Shown one piece after another: positions 11,686 to 17,554 of a DNA stretch of 64,000 nt. Under the pieces are notes generated by a model. The model did no database searches and was not told where the DNA came from. It was given only the letters and a program-made list of their open reading frames with translations. Made by a program: the position numbers and the translations under genes. Source of the stretch: Natronosalvus halobius (GTDB lineage: Archaea > Halobacteriota > Halobacteria > Halobacteriales > Natrialbaceae); the NCBI RefSeq assembly GCF_024138145.1, contig NZ_CP099997.1, forward strand, positions 1,426,001-1,490,000, read 5' to 3'. How positions within the stretch are numbered: position 1 is the first letter of the stretch; the number at the start of each line of letters is the position of its first letter.

Positions 11686-11765
11686 CGCACGGAGACAGTC
11701 TCAGGGCCCCGGTAGTCAGGATCTTCGAAGTAGCAGTTTTACGCCCGAGCGGTGTAGGGTGCGTG

Positions 11766-12413
11766 ATGTCGACGATTGCCGAGTTTCGGATTCCGGCCTC
11801 GGATACGGCCATGGAAACGACGTTCGAGCGAGCGCCACAGGCCAGGCTCGAGCTCGAGTCCTCGGTGTCGAAGACGCTCCCGTCGATCTGGGTCTCGGGG
11901 ACGACCTGCGAGGCGATCGAGAACGCCTTTGCGGCCGACGACACGATCGAGCGATTCGAACTGGTCGCGAGCGCCGAAGATCGGCTCCTCTACGACGTCG
12001 ACTCCGAGCGCGGGCAGTACCTCTACGACGAGTTGCTCTCTTCTGGCGGCTCGTTGCTCGAGGCGAGCGGCGTCGATTCCTGGTGGCAGTTCAAGATGCG
12101 GTTTCGGACGCGCGAACACCTCGTCGACACCCACGAGACGCTCGAGAGCCAGGGCATCGTAGTCGATTTGATCCGCGTCACCGACGTCACGACGGTGTCG
12201 ACGGGGAATACGCGGCTCACGCCGGAGCAACACGAGGCGTTGACGGCCGCGTTCGAGAAGGGGTACTTCAAGATTCCGCGCCAGATTTCGATGGAGGAAC
12301 TCGCGAGCGACCTCGGCATCTCCCACCAGGCGCTCTCGGAACGACTGCGGCGCGCGTACGGGACGCTGGTCGACGCGGAGGTACAGCCAGTGAACGAGCA
12401 AACGACCGACTAG
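11766..12413 (+). CDS. Bat-type HTH-10 transcriptional regulator
   Basis: A 215-residue regulator with a C-terminal bacterio-opsin-activator HTH (HTH-10, about residues 150-205). It begins with LTPEQHEALTAAFEKGYF and includes ISMEELASDLGISHQALSERLRRA as the recognition region. The N-terminal ~130 residues form the small-molecule or partner domain common to this family, with no PAS or GAF signature. A GTG directly precedes the ATG at 11766 in the same frame; I chose the ATG. Its stop overlaps that of the convergent HAD gene at a CTAG. Targets are unknown. Confidence 0.85.
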   Translation: MSTIAEFRIPASDTAMETTFERAPQARLELESSVSKTLPSIWVSGTTCEAIENAFAADDTIERFELVASAEDRLLYDVDSERGQYLYDELLSSGGSLLEASGVDSWWQFKMRFRTREHLVDTHETLESQGIVVDLIRVTDVTTVSTGNTRLTPEQHEALTAAFEKGYFKIPRQISMEELASDLGISHQALSERLRRAYGTLVDAEVQPVNEQTTD

Positions 12414-13116: not shown

Positions 13117-13207
13117 CACGTTACACGTTACACGTCACACGTCGCACGTCGCACGTTACACGTCACACGTCGCACGTCACACGTCGCACGTCACACGTCA
13201 CACGTCG
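13117..13207. repeat. Heptamer tandem array, 13 units
   Basis: Thirteen consecutive 7-base units of the form CACGTYR (CACGTTA, CACGTCA, CACGTCG) run without interruption from 13117 to 13207. The array lies between the HAD gene start and the 3' end of a small zinc-finger gene. Confidence 0.95.
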
Positions 13208-13228: not shown

Positions 13229-13438
13229 TCACCGCCGCGGTGCCTCGATCCTGACCTCCCTCGTCTCGACGCCAGCACAGGAGGGACAGACGAACCGGTA
13301 GTGGACGGACCGTCCGGACGTCGTCACGTGCCATCCCGCGTCGTCGCCGTCGTAGCCGCACTCCCGGCACCGGGCGCAGGTTCGGTCGAGTCGCTGGCGC
13401 AGCCGTTCGAACGGCGATCGGCTTCTCTGAATAGACAT
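13229..13438 (-). CDS. Small zinc-ribbon protein, HVO_0649-like
   Basis: A 69-residue protein with two knuckles, CARCREC near residues 21-27 and CPSC near residues 50-53. Together they can form a zinc ribbon. It resembles a haloarchaeal micro-protein family that I recall as HVO_0649. The basic N-terminus and ribbon suggest nucleic-acid or protein contact, which is inference. A TATA-like element 24-29 bases upstream supports this start. It is divergent from the Bat/LOV regulator. Confidence 0.75.
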   Translation of the reverse strand: MSIQRSRSPFERLRQRLDRTCARCRECGYDGDDAGWHVTTSGRSVHYRFVCPSCAGVETREVRIEAPRR

Positions 13439-13461
13439 GTGTTAACATACAACTCGACGTC

Positions 13462-13467: not shown

Positions 13468-13521
13468 TTGTCCGCATCAGTCACGAACGAAGAATGTTAA
13501 CCACCGCGATAGGGACTGGCG

Positions 13522-13529
13522 TTTTATGA
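13522..13529 (+). promoter_or_regulatory. TATA-like box of the Bat/LOV regulator gene
   Basis: TTTTATGA located 17-24 bases before the ATG at 13546, consistent with a leaderless transcript. Confidence 0.4.
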
Positions 13530-13545: not shown

Positions 13546-15114
13546 ATGGACATGGACGACACCGACGGGCGGCACGGGGCAAACGACGTCGATCGAGCCG
13601 TGAAGGCGAGGGCGATCGACGAGGCACCGATCGGTGTCTCGCTCTCCGATCCGTCACGCGAGGACAATCCGCTGGTGTACATCAATCCGGCCTTCGAACG
13701 ATTCACCGGCTACGACGGCGAAGCGGTTCTCGGACGAAACTGTCGATTCCTCCAGGGGCCGGACTCGAGCCCCGAAGCAGTCGCGGAAATGCGGGCCGCT
13801 ATCGAGGAAGAACGGCCAACCACGGTCGAACTCCGGAATTACCGGGACGACGGCACCGAGTTCTGGAACGAGGTGACGATCGCCCCCGTCCGCGACGAGA
13901 CGGGAACCGTCACCCACTACGTCGGCTTCCAGAACGACGTCACGGCCAGAAAGGTAGCCGAGTTGGCCCTCGAAGAACGAACCGAGGAACTGGAGTACAT
14001 CCTCGAGCGCGTCGAAGGACTGATCCAGGACGTGACCAGCGTCGTCGCCGGATCGACCTCCAGGAGCGATCTCGAGACTGCAGTGTGTAACCGAATCGCT
14101 GAGGAAGCCGCCTACGAGGGTGCCTGGATCGGCGAACGCAACCCCGCCACAGACACGCTCGAGGTGCGAGCGAGCGTCGGCGTCGATCCCGGCGATGTGC
14201 CGATTGACGCCGATCACCCCGCGACGACTAGCCTCGCTTCGGGGTCCGTCGTCGTCGACACGGTCGAGGGGTGGACCCACGCTTCGTTCCCGCTCTCCTA
14301 CAACGGCGTCGAGTACGGGACGTTGACGGTCTGCAGCGACCCCTCGCGCGGCGTCGACGACCGCGAGACGATCATCCTCTCGGCGCTCGCGCGGGCGGTC
14401 GCCAGCGGAATCAACGCTCGCGAGACCAGTCGTATGCTCGCGACGGACGCCGTCGTCGCCGTCGAACTCGAGATGACCGACCACGACCTCCCACCAGTCG
14501 CGATCAGTGCCGAGACGGGCGGCCGCCTCGAGTACCGTCGGTCGGTTCACCGGGCGGGCGACGACACGGCATCGCTGTTTACGGTCACGAACGCTGTCAC
14601 CGAAGAACTGGCGGCGGCCACCGACGATCTCGAGGGGATCGACCTCGAGGTGCTCGTCGAGCGGGCGGACCGCACGTTGATCGAACTCAACGCCGAGGCG
14701 GATCTCGTGGGTTGGCTCTCCGAACGCGGCATTCTCGTCCAGTCGATCATCGCTGAAGGTAGCCACGCCCGCGTGACCCTCGAGATCCCGCACTCGACGA
14801 ACGTTCGCGGCGTCGTCGAGTCGGTTCAGGCACGGTACGACGGAACGGACGTCATTTCTTTTCGCCAGCACGAACGCGGGGGCGAGACTCGCGAGGAGTT
14901 TGCCGCCAGACTCGAGGATGCGCTCACCGACCGCCAGTTCGCCTCCCTGCAACGGGCGTACCTCGGCGGATACTTCGAGTGGCCCCGTCCGACCACTGGC
15001 GAAGAACTCGCCAGTTCGATGAACGTCTCCCGGCCGACGTTTCACGAACACCTCAGAAACGCCGAAGCGAAACTCTGTCGAGCGTTCTTCGGTGACGAGT
15101 TGGCCGAAGAATGA
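13546..15114 (+). CDS. Bat-like regulator with LOV, GAF and HTH-10 domains
   Basis: A 522-residue multi-domain regulator. Residues ~20-130 form a PAS domain with GRNCRFLQGP, the flavin-binding signature of LOV photoreceptors; C66 is the position that forms the photo-adduct. A coiled linker (~135-165) leads to a GAF domain (~170-290), then the Bat middle domain (~295-455). The C-terminus is an HTH-10 (~465-515) with LTDRQFASLQRAYLGGYFEW and a recognition helix around NVSRPTFHEH. Bat in Halobacterium activates bacterio-opsin and carotenoid genes. Whether this protein senses blue light and which genes it controls are inferred. No opsin or crt gene is in the window. Confidence 0.9.
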   Translation: MDMDDTDGRHGANDVDRAVKARAIDEAPIGVSLSDPSREDNPLVYINPAFERFTGYDGEAVLGRNCRFLQGPDSSPEAVAEMRAAIEEERPTTVELRNYRDDGTEFWNEVTIAPVRDETGTVTHYVGFQNDVTARKVAELALEERTEELEYILERVEGLIQDVTSVVAGSTSRSDLETAVCNRIAEEAAYEGAWIGERNPATDTLEVRASVGVDPGDVPIDADHPATTSLASGSVVVDTVEGWTHASFPLSYNGVEYGTLTVCSDPSRGVDDRETIILSALARAVASGINARETSRMLATDAVVAVELEMTDHDLPPVAISAETGGRLEYRRSVHRAGDDTASLFTVTNAVTEELAAATDDLEGIDLEVLVERADRTLIELNAEADLVGWLSERGILVQSIIAEGSHARVTLEIPHSTNVRGVVESVQARYDGTDVISFRQHERGGETREEFAARLEDALTDRQFASLQRAYLGGYFEWPRPTTGEELASSMNVSRPTFHEHLRNAEAKLCRAFFGDELAEE

Positions 15115-15217: not shown

Positions 15218-15400
15218 ATGCTCGAGATTCCACTCCAGATCGGTGGCGGCGGATTCCTGTACTGGGCGATCATCTTCTTCGTCCTGGCGATTATCGCCGC
15301 GGCGGTCGGTTCCCGCGGCGTCGCCGGGGTGAGTATGGAGATCGCACGGATATTCGTGTTGATCTTCATCATCCTCGCTGTCGTCGCTCTGTTACTGTAG
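15218..15400 (+). CDS. Small membrane protein, DUF1328 family
   Basis: A 60-residue protein that is almost entirely two membrane helices (about residues 13-30 and 42-60), joined by a short loop containing GSRGVAGVS. This matches the DUF1328/YtjA family of small stress-associated membrane proteins found in bacteria and haloarchaea. The function is unknown. It has its own promoter and no operon partner. Confidence 0.85.
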   Translation: MLEIPLQIGGGGFLYWAIIFFVLAIIAAAVGSRGVAGVSMEIARIFVLIFIILAVVALLL

Positions 15401-15436: not shown

Positions 15437-15499
15437 GAGATCGGGGACAGGAGGATGGAGACCAGATACCGGATACCGGAGACCGGAGACCGGAGACCG
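15437..15499. repeat. Heptamer tandem array, 9 units
   Basis: Nine 7-base units in phase. The last five are GATACCG, GATACCG, GAGACCG, GAGACCG, GAGACCG (15465-15499). The four before them are degenerate (GAGATCG, GGGACAG, GAGGATG, GAGACCA). It lies between the DUF1328 gene and the aldehyde oxidoreductase gene. Confidence 0.85.
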
Positions 15500-15634
15500 G
15501 AGAAGCAACGACAGAGTGCGGACTCGCCACCGGGACGAGTCTGTCGACGTTCTACGCGATGTAAGCGGATTCGGTTACGTGCCTGTGGGAACGCCTAACA
15601 GGCTTCGAGACGAATATAACGGACAGAGTTTACC

Positions 15635-17554
15635 ATGACAGAACTTGGCGGTTTTCAAGACAGGGTTGCTCGCATCGATCTCTCCTCAGGCTCGGTCGAC
15701 TACGAGCCGATCGACGACGAGGACGCCAGGAAGTACATTGGGGCCCGCGGCCTCGGCGTGAAGTACGTCTTCGAAAACGGACCGGACGTCGACCCGGAGG
15801 GACCCGAGAACCTGCTCGCGTTCATGAACGGTCCGCTCACTGGCTCGCAGGTTCCGATGTCCGGACGAATCGCGGTCTGTACCAAATCGCCGCTGACCGG
15901 AACCGTCACCGACAGCCACCACGGCGGCTGGTCCGGCGCGCGGCTGAAATGGGCCGGCTTCGATGGCCTGCTGTTCGAGGGGAAGGCCGACGACCCCGTC
16001 TACGCCGTCGTCGAGGACGGTGAGGTCGAACTCCGTGACGCCTCTCACCTCTGGGGAAGCGGCGTCCACGCGACTCGCGACCAGCTCGAGGAGGAGGTAG
16101 AGGGTGCTTACGGGAAGAACCTCTCGCTGATGGCCATCGGTCCTGGCGGCGAGAACGGCGTGAAGTACGCCTGCATCATGAACGAGGACGACCGGGCCTC
16201 CGGCCGTGGCGGCACCGGCTGCGTGATGGGGTCGAAGAACCTCAAGGCGGTCGTCGTCAAATCGACGACGAAAATGCCCAAGCCCGCGGATCAGGAGACG
16301 TTCAGGGAGGGCCACCAGCAGGCGATGAAGGCGATCCAGGAGTCGGACGTCACCGCGCCCAACGAGGGCGGCCTCTCGATGTATGGGACGAACGTCCTGA
16401 TGAACATCGGCGAGGAGATGGACGGCCTCCCGACGAAGAACGCCCAGTACACATCGACCGAGAGCATGCGCGAGGCCGAAGGCGTCGACATCGACGCCGA
16501 GCGCGTCTCCGGGGAGAACGTCCGCGAGAACATCCTCGTCGACGAACCGACCTGTCACTCCTGTCCGGTCGCCTGCAAGAAGGAAGTCGAGGTGCAGACG
16601 ATGCACAAGGGCGAGGAGATGAACGTCAGGACGGAGTCATACGAGTACGAGTCGGCCTACGCACTCGGCCCGAACTCGGGACACACCGACCGCGACGCCG
16701 TCGCCCTCATGATCGAGCGCTGTAACGACGTAGGCGTCGACACCATCGAGACGGGCAACATGATGGCGATGGCTATGGAGATGACCGAGCAGGACAAACT
16801 CGAGGAGGGCGACCTCGAGTGGGGCGACTACGAGACGATGATCGACATGATCGACCGAATCGGTCGGCGCGAGGACGACCTCGCCGACCTGCTCGCGGAG
16901 GGGCCACGCCGAGTCGCCGACCGCAAGGACGCTCAGGACAACTCACTAGCGGTCAAAGGCCAGACCATCGCCGCTTACGATCCACGCTGCATGAAGGGGA
17001 TGGGCATCGGCTACGCCACCTCCAACCGCGGCGCGTGTCACCTGCGCGGGTACACGCCTGCCGCCGAAATTCTCGGCATTCCCGAGAAGGTCGATCCGTA
17101 CGAGTGGGAGGGCAAAGGCGAACTGACCGCCGCCTTCCAGGACCTCCACGCCATCTCCGACAGCTTCGACATCTGCAAGTTCAATGCATTCGCAGAGGGC
17201 ATCGAGGAGTACGTCTCCCAGTACAACGGCATGACCGGCCTCGACGTGAGTGAGGACGAACTCCTGGAGGCTGGCGAGCGCATCTACAACTTAGAGCGCT
17301 ACTACAACAACCTCGCCGGCTTCGACGGTGCGGACGACTCCCTGCCGGCGCGCTTCCTGGAGGACGGCATCCGCGGCCAGGGCGCCAGCGAGGGCGAGTA
17401 CTGCGAACTCGAGGAGATGAAGGACGAGTACTACGAACACCGCGGCTGGGTCGACGGCGTCGTTCCCGACGAGAAACTCGACGAACTCGGCATCGACATG
17501 GGTCCCGGTACCGGCGTTTCGGCGGGCGATTCGCCGGCTCCGGCCGACGACTGA
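15635..17554 (+). CDS. aor: Tungsten aldehyde:ferredoxin oxidoreductase
   Basis: A 639-residue AOR-family enzyme that oxidises aldehydes to acids with ferredoxin. It uses a tungsten bis-pterin cofactor and one Fe4S4 cluster. The cluster ligands are CHSCPVAC near residues 307-314 and a distal cysteine in FDICKFN near 512. The pterin-binding stretch AYDPRCMKGMGIGYATSN occurs near 447-464. The N-terminal domain carries GARGLGVKYVF and GPGGENG. The length is normal for the family. It probably depends on the MoeA proteins and UbaA of this window for cofactor maturation. The physiological aldehyde is not evident. It is monocistronic here, with the formaldehyde-dehydrogenase-like ADH following after 257 bases. 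Confidence 0.93.
   Translation: MTELGGFQDRVARIDLSSGSVDYEPIDDEDARKYIGARGLGVKYVFENGPDVDPEGPENLLAFMNGPLTGSQVPMSGRIAVCTKSPLTGTVTDSHHGGWSGARLKWAGFDGLLFEGKADDPVYAVVEDGEVELRDASHLWGSGVHATRDQLEEEVEGAYGKNLSLMAIGPGGENGVKYACIMNEDDRASGRGGTGCVMGSKNLKAVVVKSTTKMPKPADQETFREGHQQAMKAIQESDVTAPNEGGLSMYGTNVLMNIGEEMDGLPTKNAQYTSTESMREAEGVDIDAERVSGENVRENILVDEPTCHSCPVACKKEVEVQTMHKGEEMNVRTESYEYESAYALGPNSGHTDRDAVALMIERCNDVGVDTIETGNMMAMAMEMTEQDKLEEGDLEWGDYETMIDMIDRIGRREDDLADLLAEGPRRVADRKDAQDNSLAVKGQTIAAYDPRCMKGMGIGYATSNRGACHLRGYTPAAEILGIPEKVDPYEWEGKGELTAAFQDLHAISDSFDICKFNAFAEGIEEYVSQYNGMTGLDVSEDELLEAGERIYNLERYYNNLAGFDGADDSLPARFLEDGIRGQGASEGEYCELEEMKDEYYEHRGWVDGVVPDEKLDELGIDMGPGTGVSAGDSPAPADD

Follow-up and report, generated by a model that had tools for sequence, protein, structure and literature searches.

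Does the regulator encoded at 13546-15114 of a 64,000-nucleotide stretch of the Natronosalvus halobius chromosome (hereafter the window) sense blue light, and which genes might it control? The original prediction described a Bat-type regulator with a complete LOV photosensor signature followed by GAF and HTH-10 domains, and considered its regulon not obvious. Pfam and PDB matches confirmed the open reading frame, the domains and the LOV signature, in the order LOV-GAF-BAT-HTH_10. The PAS_9 (39-134), BAT (301-453) and HTH_10 (460-511) matches exceed their Pfam cut-offs, and the GAF match falls below its own. The features of the gene are as follows.

13552-15114, + strand: LOV-Bat regulator gene; the probable true start is the second ATG, the earlier ORF start lying at 13546.
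13522-13527, + strand: TATA-like box of the LOV gene (TTTTAT), 25 nt before ATG 13552 and identical in the sister genomes.
13612-13953, + strand: LOV (PAS-fold) domain, aa 23-136, identified by Pfam PAS_9, PDB sequence matches, fold search and the structural model.
13741-13743, + strand: TGT codon of the adduct-forming Cys (C66; C64 from the second ATG) in the motif GRNCRFLQGP.
13942-14052, + strand: linker helix of 37 residues from LOV to GAF, a candidate signalling helix (AlphaFold2 helix 131-167, 520-aa numbering).
14059-14412, + strand: GAF-like domain, aa 172-289 (Pfam GAF_2, E=2.4e-4; 21.7 bits against a cut-off of 28.6).
14446-14904, + strand: BAT domain, aa 301-453 (Pfam PF15915, E=1.2e-33).
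14923-15078, + strand: predicted HTH_10 DNA-binding domain, aa 460-511 (Pfam PF04967, E=9.5e-19).
15031-15057, + strand: RPTFHEHLR, the presumed HTH recognition helix, invariant among orthologues.

In an alignment with the two closest genomes, ATG 13546 reads GTG or ACG, ATG 13552 is kept in both, and more distant orthologues start with MDD- or MED-like sequences. With the start at ATG 13552, C66 becomes C64, first-ATG numbers being two higher throughout; the start is expected to be leaderless. Overall confidence in the AlphaFold2 model is modest (pLDDT 72.7, pTM 0.50), and it is lowest in the N-terminal part of the LOV domain and in the HTH, so the mutual placement of the domains was not read from it; its GAF-like region is a confident mixed alpha/beta fold.

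The photosensor is complete by the residues that define LOV domains. GRNCRFLQGP carries the reactive cysteine in its GxNCRxLQ context, and the flavin-contacting Asn/Asn/Gln of the later strands are N98, N108 and Q129 when aligned to YtvA. Together with N65, R67 and Q70, all canonical LOV residues are present, and in second-ATG numbering this set (Cys64, Asn63, Arg65, Gln68, Asn96, Asn106, Gln127) is invariant in 28 of 28 aligned orthologues. Of 50 named homologous loci with a readable motif, 48 carry the LOV cysteine, and the other two encode Bat-like proteins with a Cys-to-Pro change. The best 60 of 153 PDB sequence matches almost all bear names of LOV or blue-light photoreceptors (among them YtvA, E=2e-35), with alignments running through GRNCRFLQG, NYR, FWN and the FQND glutamine, and a fold search likewise placed LOV structures at the top. 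No other LOV-like domain was found in the window's genome; the next-best matches to the LOV domain are PAS domains with only 28-36% identity, and a motif scan of their loci showed no LOV Cys signature. Since a sequence-complete LOV domain is joined here to GAF, BAT and HTH_10, the natural reading of the gene product is a blue-light-sensing one-component transcription regulator. The direct blue-light transcription switch proposed in the original prediction is thus well supported at the level of sequence, as a member of a class that has already been described.

The same cysteine position reads GRNPR in several Bat homologues, namely the opsin-linked Bat proteins of L071, L072, L073 and L074 and those of L267 (Halorubrum yunnanense) and L268, which keep the other flavin-contact residues read; this pattern suggests a Cys-less flavin sensor in the opsin-linked proteins. 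A flavin domain of this kind could also serve mainly to report redox or oxygen state, with light secondary. Such a role has been proposed for Halobacterium Bat, which was described with a redox-sensing PAS/PAC domain and acts at low oxygen (PMC2253796), and the flavin pocket retained by the Cys-to-Pro relatives would suit it. For the window protein we regard this explanation as improbable, because redox sensing alone can hardly account for an adduct cysteine that never varies among the aligned orthologues. That invariance, set beside the Cys-to-Pro change in opsin-linked relatives, argues instead for selection on photochemistry and so for the light-sensing reading.

Orthologues of LOV-Bat were found in 97 of 125 Natrialbaceae genomes. 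In a quick tree, 29 orthologues of the window protein formed one group (SH-aLRT 100), distinct both from the Bat proteins linked to opsins and from a Bat paralogue located close to crtID. The label "Bat-type" therefore holds for the PAS-GAF-BAT-HTH_10 architecture and fails for orthology: the protein belongs to a separate supported group and resides in a genome that has no opsin gene to which it could be linked or which it could regulate. The absence of opsins noted for the window extends to the whole genome, and none was detected in 10 other genomes carrying an orthologue, so an opsin was rejected as the target. All six LOV-less genomes of our first family set have opsins, and lack of an opsin separates genomes with and without the LOV gene unconvincingly. 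Elsewhere, LOV-Cys-bearing Bat homologues directly adjoin opsin genes (L061, L065, L067, L069 and L070), and in those lineages an intact LOV sensor could control opsin. The window itself holds a second Bat-family regulator three genes upstream (11763-12413, + strand), with HTH_10, a marginal BAT match and no sensor, whose position here is conserved chiefly among members of the genus.

The original prediction placed C66 in the first PAS domain. This is correct for the window copy and does not extend to orthologues outside a trio comprising the window protein and two sister proteins (92% and 89% identical to it), which have a PAS domain before LOV. Elsewhere, orthologues share the opening few residues and then have about 100 further codons, with PAS-model matches in some, whereas the trio runs from MDDTDGRHGAN directly into DVDRAVK.

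13553-13579, + strand: approximate site of the N-terminal PAS deletion, where orthologues have about 100 extra codons.

The comparison indicates that the first PAS domain was lost by a clean in-frame deletion in the window's genome and its two sister species, and tblastn found no convincing match to a remnant elsewhere in the window. The same three genomes have no detectable opsin, and the other five of the genus do. We treat these two losses in one lineage as a coincidence of events rather than as a test.

The genes next to the regulator offer one possible regulon.

13229-13438, - strand: divergent gene for a small CxxCG...CPxC zinc-finger protein, above the NCBIfam cut-off for the HVO_0649 family.
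15218-15400, + strand: DUF1328 small membrane-protein gene, a conserved downstream neighbour.
15635-17554, + strand: aldehyde ferredoxin oxidoreductase (AOR) family gene, the next conserved neighbour.

The small divergent zinc-ribbon gene that had been predicted is thus real. Its product is Brz-like as that class is defined (two CxxC patterns 7-40 residues apart, at least one of them CPxCG-like, in a protein under 100 aa), having 69 aa with CRECG and CPSCA at a spacing within those limits, and it adjoins LOV-Bat in orthologous loci. Intergenic 7-bp tandem arrays flank the locus (CACGTCA x12.9 at 13117-13206 and GGAGACC x6.7 at 15457-15503). If light regulated these immediate neighbours and not carotenoid genes, one would expect the constancy that we observed, with the order zinc finger (divergent), LOV-Bat, DUF1328, AOR recurring in nearly all of 20 genomes, and the pairing of small zinc-finger genes with Bat homologues in Halobacterium salinarum (PMC2253796) would fit as well. 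Three genomes (G018, G028 and G017) nevertheless lack the LOV gene between the zinc finger and DUF1328, with about 0.2 kb left there, and retain these two genes side by side, mostly with AOR; the neighbours are thus independent of the LOV gene. The zinc-finger, DUF1328 and AOR promoters of the LOV-bearing genomes tested also score at background for the palindrome described below. On both counts, we consider a neighbour regulon quite unlikely and rejected these genes as the main target. In a further genome without the LOV gene, G032 (L280, 700-5900), the zinc finger and DUF1328 are separated by about 5 kb with other ORFs, one of them 836 aa long.

The original prediction also noted that the divergent genes share a region with matching TGTTAAC words.

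13440-13446, + strand: first TGTTAAC word, close to the start of the zinc-finger gene, in sequence that is only partly conserved among relatives.
13495-13501, + strand: second TGTTAAC word, which reads TGTTCAC in both sister genomes.

Both lie in the 108-bp gap, and the window has no other copy. The three strand matches at these two sites (one site matching on both strands) compare with 1.19 expected, and 10 of 100 shuffles reached at least three. With the second word not conserved in the two closest genomes, and the first only partly kept in sequence close to the zinc-finger start, genome comparison contradicts a shared control region; that the pair forms the operator of the divergent genes is hardly credible.

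A different element emerged when orthologue promoters were aligned at the start codon, where a palindrome with the core CCTANGTAGG lies between the TATA box and the ATG (CCTACGTAGG in one relative). It was first spotted by eye, and its link to crtID was one of several genome matches that was then tested in further genomes. LOV promoters scored a mean of 6.79 out of 9 against 5.23+-0.14 after shuffling, mostly at -12 to -17. The promoters of the window trio lack the palindrome. In a scan of 61 genomes for a longer form, about half of the sites fell at LOV promoters and one lay upstream of the CrtID TATA box (G011). Genome-wide, the strict 16-bp palindrome was no commoner than its reversed control, so only its repeated placement counts.

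The second repeated placement is at crtID. Closely packed on one strand, crtID is followed by genes for a UbiA-family prenyltransferase and CruF (CrtID and CruF above their NCBIfam cut-offs), and in the window's genome some 0.99 Mb separates this operon from the LOV gene. These genes belong to the pathway of bacterioruberin, a red protective C50 carotenoid. Among 37 family genomes in the first set, crtID promoters of LOV-bearing genomes averaged 6.81 against 5.39+-0.13 shuffled, mostly at -47 to -52, and those of the six LOV-less genomes averaged 5.5. A second LOV-bearing set, from the search of 125 genomes, averaged 7.57 against 5.34+-0.12, and most of the added LOV-less genomes were at background. 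A crtID site scoring at least 7 of 9 was present in 77% of 71 LOV-bearing genomes versus 8% of 25 LOV-less ones; grouping by genus and state, a rough correction for shared ancestry, gave p=0.015 for the association, one 67%-complete genome being left out. The association has exceptions, as several LOV-bearing genomes have no clear crtID site (e.g. G009, G013, G021, G036 and G088). Within Natronorubrum, G140 and G143 lack both the LOV gene and the site, and eight congeners score 7-9, but in these two the whole crtID promoter has changed, including the TATA box, and not the palindrome alone. In the window's genome the crtID site reads CCTACGTGGG and lies upstream of the TATA box. The composite pattern CCTACGTR-N8-18-TTTAT occurs once in this genome, at crtID (C1:450882-450906, minus strand), and likewise once, at crtID, in both sister genomes. 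As the LOV promoter in the window lacks the palindrome, the carotenoid link in this genome comes from the crtID site alone. We propose, with moderate confidence and from sequence comparison, the bacterioruberin operon as a candidate regulon outside the window.

The protein could be a real LOV regulator and the crtID palindrome nonetheless be bound by another factor that controls both genes, such as another HTH_10 protein or a zinc-finger protein. The window's genome (3.85 Mb) encodes 39 HTH_10 domains, and several relatives have a Bat paralogue without LOV some 5 kb away from crtID (L127, L131, L132, L133 and L139). Two genomes in which our search found no LOV gene (G069 and G113) keep the crtID site, and LOV-less G018 (L131) has the dyad CCCTATTCACGTAGGG directly before the crtID start codon, the position that the palindrome occupies in LOV promoters elsewhere. 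The distribution of the paralogue does not follow that of the site, however: no Bat homologue was seen near crtID in G000 (the window's genome), G001 or G007, of which G000 and G007 nevertheless carry the site, and G018 and G028 have a crt-linked Bat but lack the site at -51. Site presence tracks the LOV gene, and the presumed recognition segment RPTFHEHLR is both invariant within the LOV group and particular to it: its counterpart is mostly R[SQ]TFHQHLR in paralogues, almost all of which differ from the window group. We consider a different binding factor unlikely, though it deserves to be taken seriously.

Our preferred reading, in which the LOV protein itself binds the palindrome, can be set out as a mechanism. 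By established LOV chemistry, the domain would bind FMN and form a Cys66-flavin adduct in light; the resulting conformational change would pass from LOV through the 37-residue helix to GAF, BAT and HTH_10. Judging from the conserved promoter sites, the family regulator would bind the palindrome and act on the crtID-prenyltransferase-cruF operon from a site immediately 5' of the TATA box, a placement that suggests activation. In most relatives it would also control its own gene from the site between the TATA box and the start codon, which is a typical repressor position and suggests self-repression. The window's lineage would have lost this self-site along with the N-terminal PAS domain and kept the carotenoid site; its regulator should thus lack autoregulation at that site and have LOV as its first input domain. 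That the protein is a one-component blue-light regulator that binds this palindrome and activates the crtID operon, with autoregulation in most relatives, strikes us as evenly poised between right and wrong. The wider proposal, that the orthologue group is the bacterioruberin blue-light switch of the Natrialbaceae, activating crtID and repressing itself through one operator, and that the window lineage dropped self-control and an input PAS, is tentative and falls a little short of even.

What is new here is the Natrialbaceae-wide orthologue group, the N-terminal PAS loss, the rejection of the TGTTAAC words and the palindrome common to LOV and crtID promoters. In our literature search no paper assigned a target gene to an archaeal LOV-HTH protein, and, if the proposal is true, this protein would be the first of the archaeal LOV proteins to have a known target. 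With a candidate operator and operon, an unassigned photoreceptor becomes a testable light-to-pigment circuit, for which the 125 genomes supply ready comparisons through their natural losses of the gene, the site and the domain. A one-component LOV regulator that tolerates salt and has a defined operator could also become a light-control tool in haloarchaea.

Among known systems, the closest class is that of the archaeal LOV-HTH proteins, which Losi and Gärtner had listed by 2014, one arrangement being Bat-like and none having then been investigated (PMC4844311). Like the window protein, these proteins of Halobacteria combine LOV with PAS/GAF domains and end in an HTH, and the window protein fits their arrangement (RR/GAF/PAS)+LOV+nPAS+kGAF+HTH with a GAF below the Pfam cut-off; to that survey we add one orthologue group defined by locus, domain loss, candidate operator and target. 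Halobacterium salinarum Bat shares PAS, GAF and a C-terminal HTH, and small zinc-finger genes lie near Bat homologues there too (PMC2253796). The adduct Cys is absent from Halobacterium Bat (PMC4844311) and is replaced by Pro in four of the opsin-linked relatives read, whereas the window protein keeps it, falls in a separate group and belongs to a genome without opsin. The bacterial LOV-HTH protein EL222 follows the same one-component blue-light DNA-binding logic with a similar LOV domain (PDB 8a5r, E=7.6e-25), but places LOV next to a different HTH, whereas the window protein connects LOV to HTH_10 via a long helix, GAF and BAT. The YtvA-type LOV family gave the best NCBIfam match (aa 21-156) as well as a top PDB match, although the window protein lacks the STAS output domain and stays below that family's full-length cut-off. 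Finally, ALovD-1, an archaeal LOV from Lake Diamante, is likewise a canonical haloarchaeal LOV; studied as a domain only, without a target gene, it photocycles in 3 M salt (PMC12202551).
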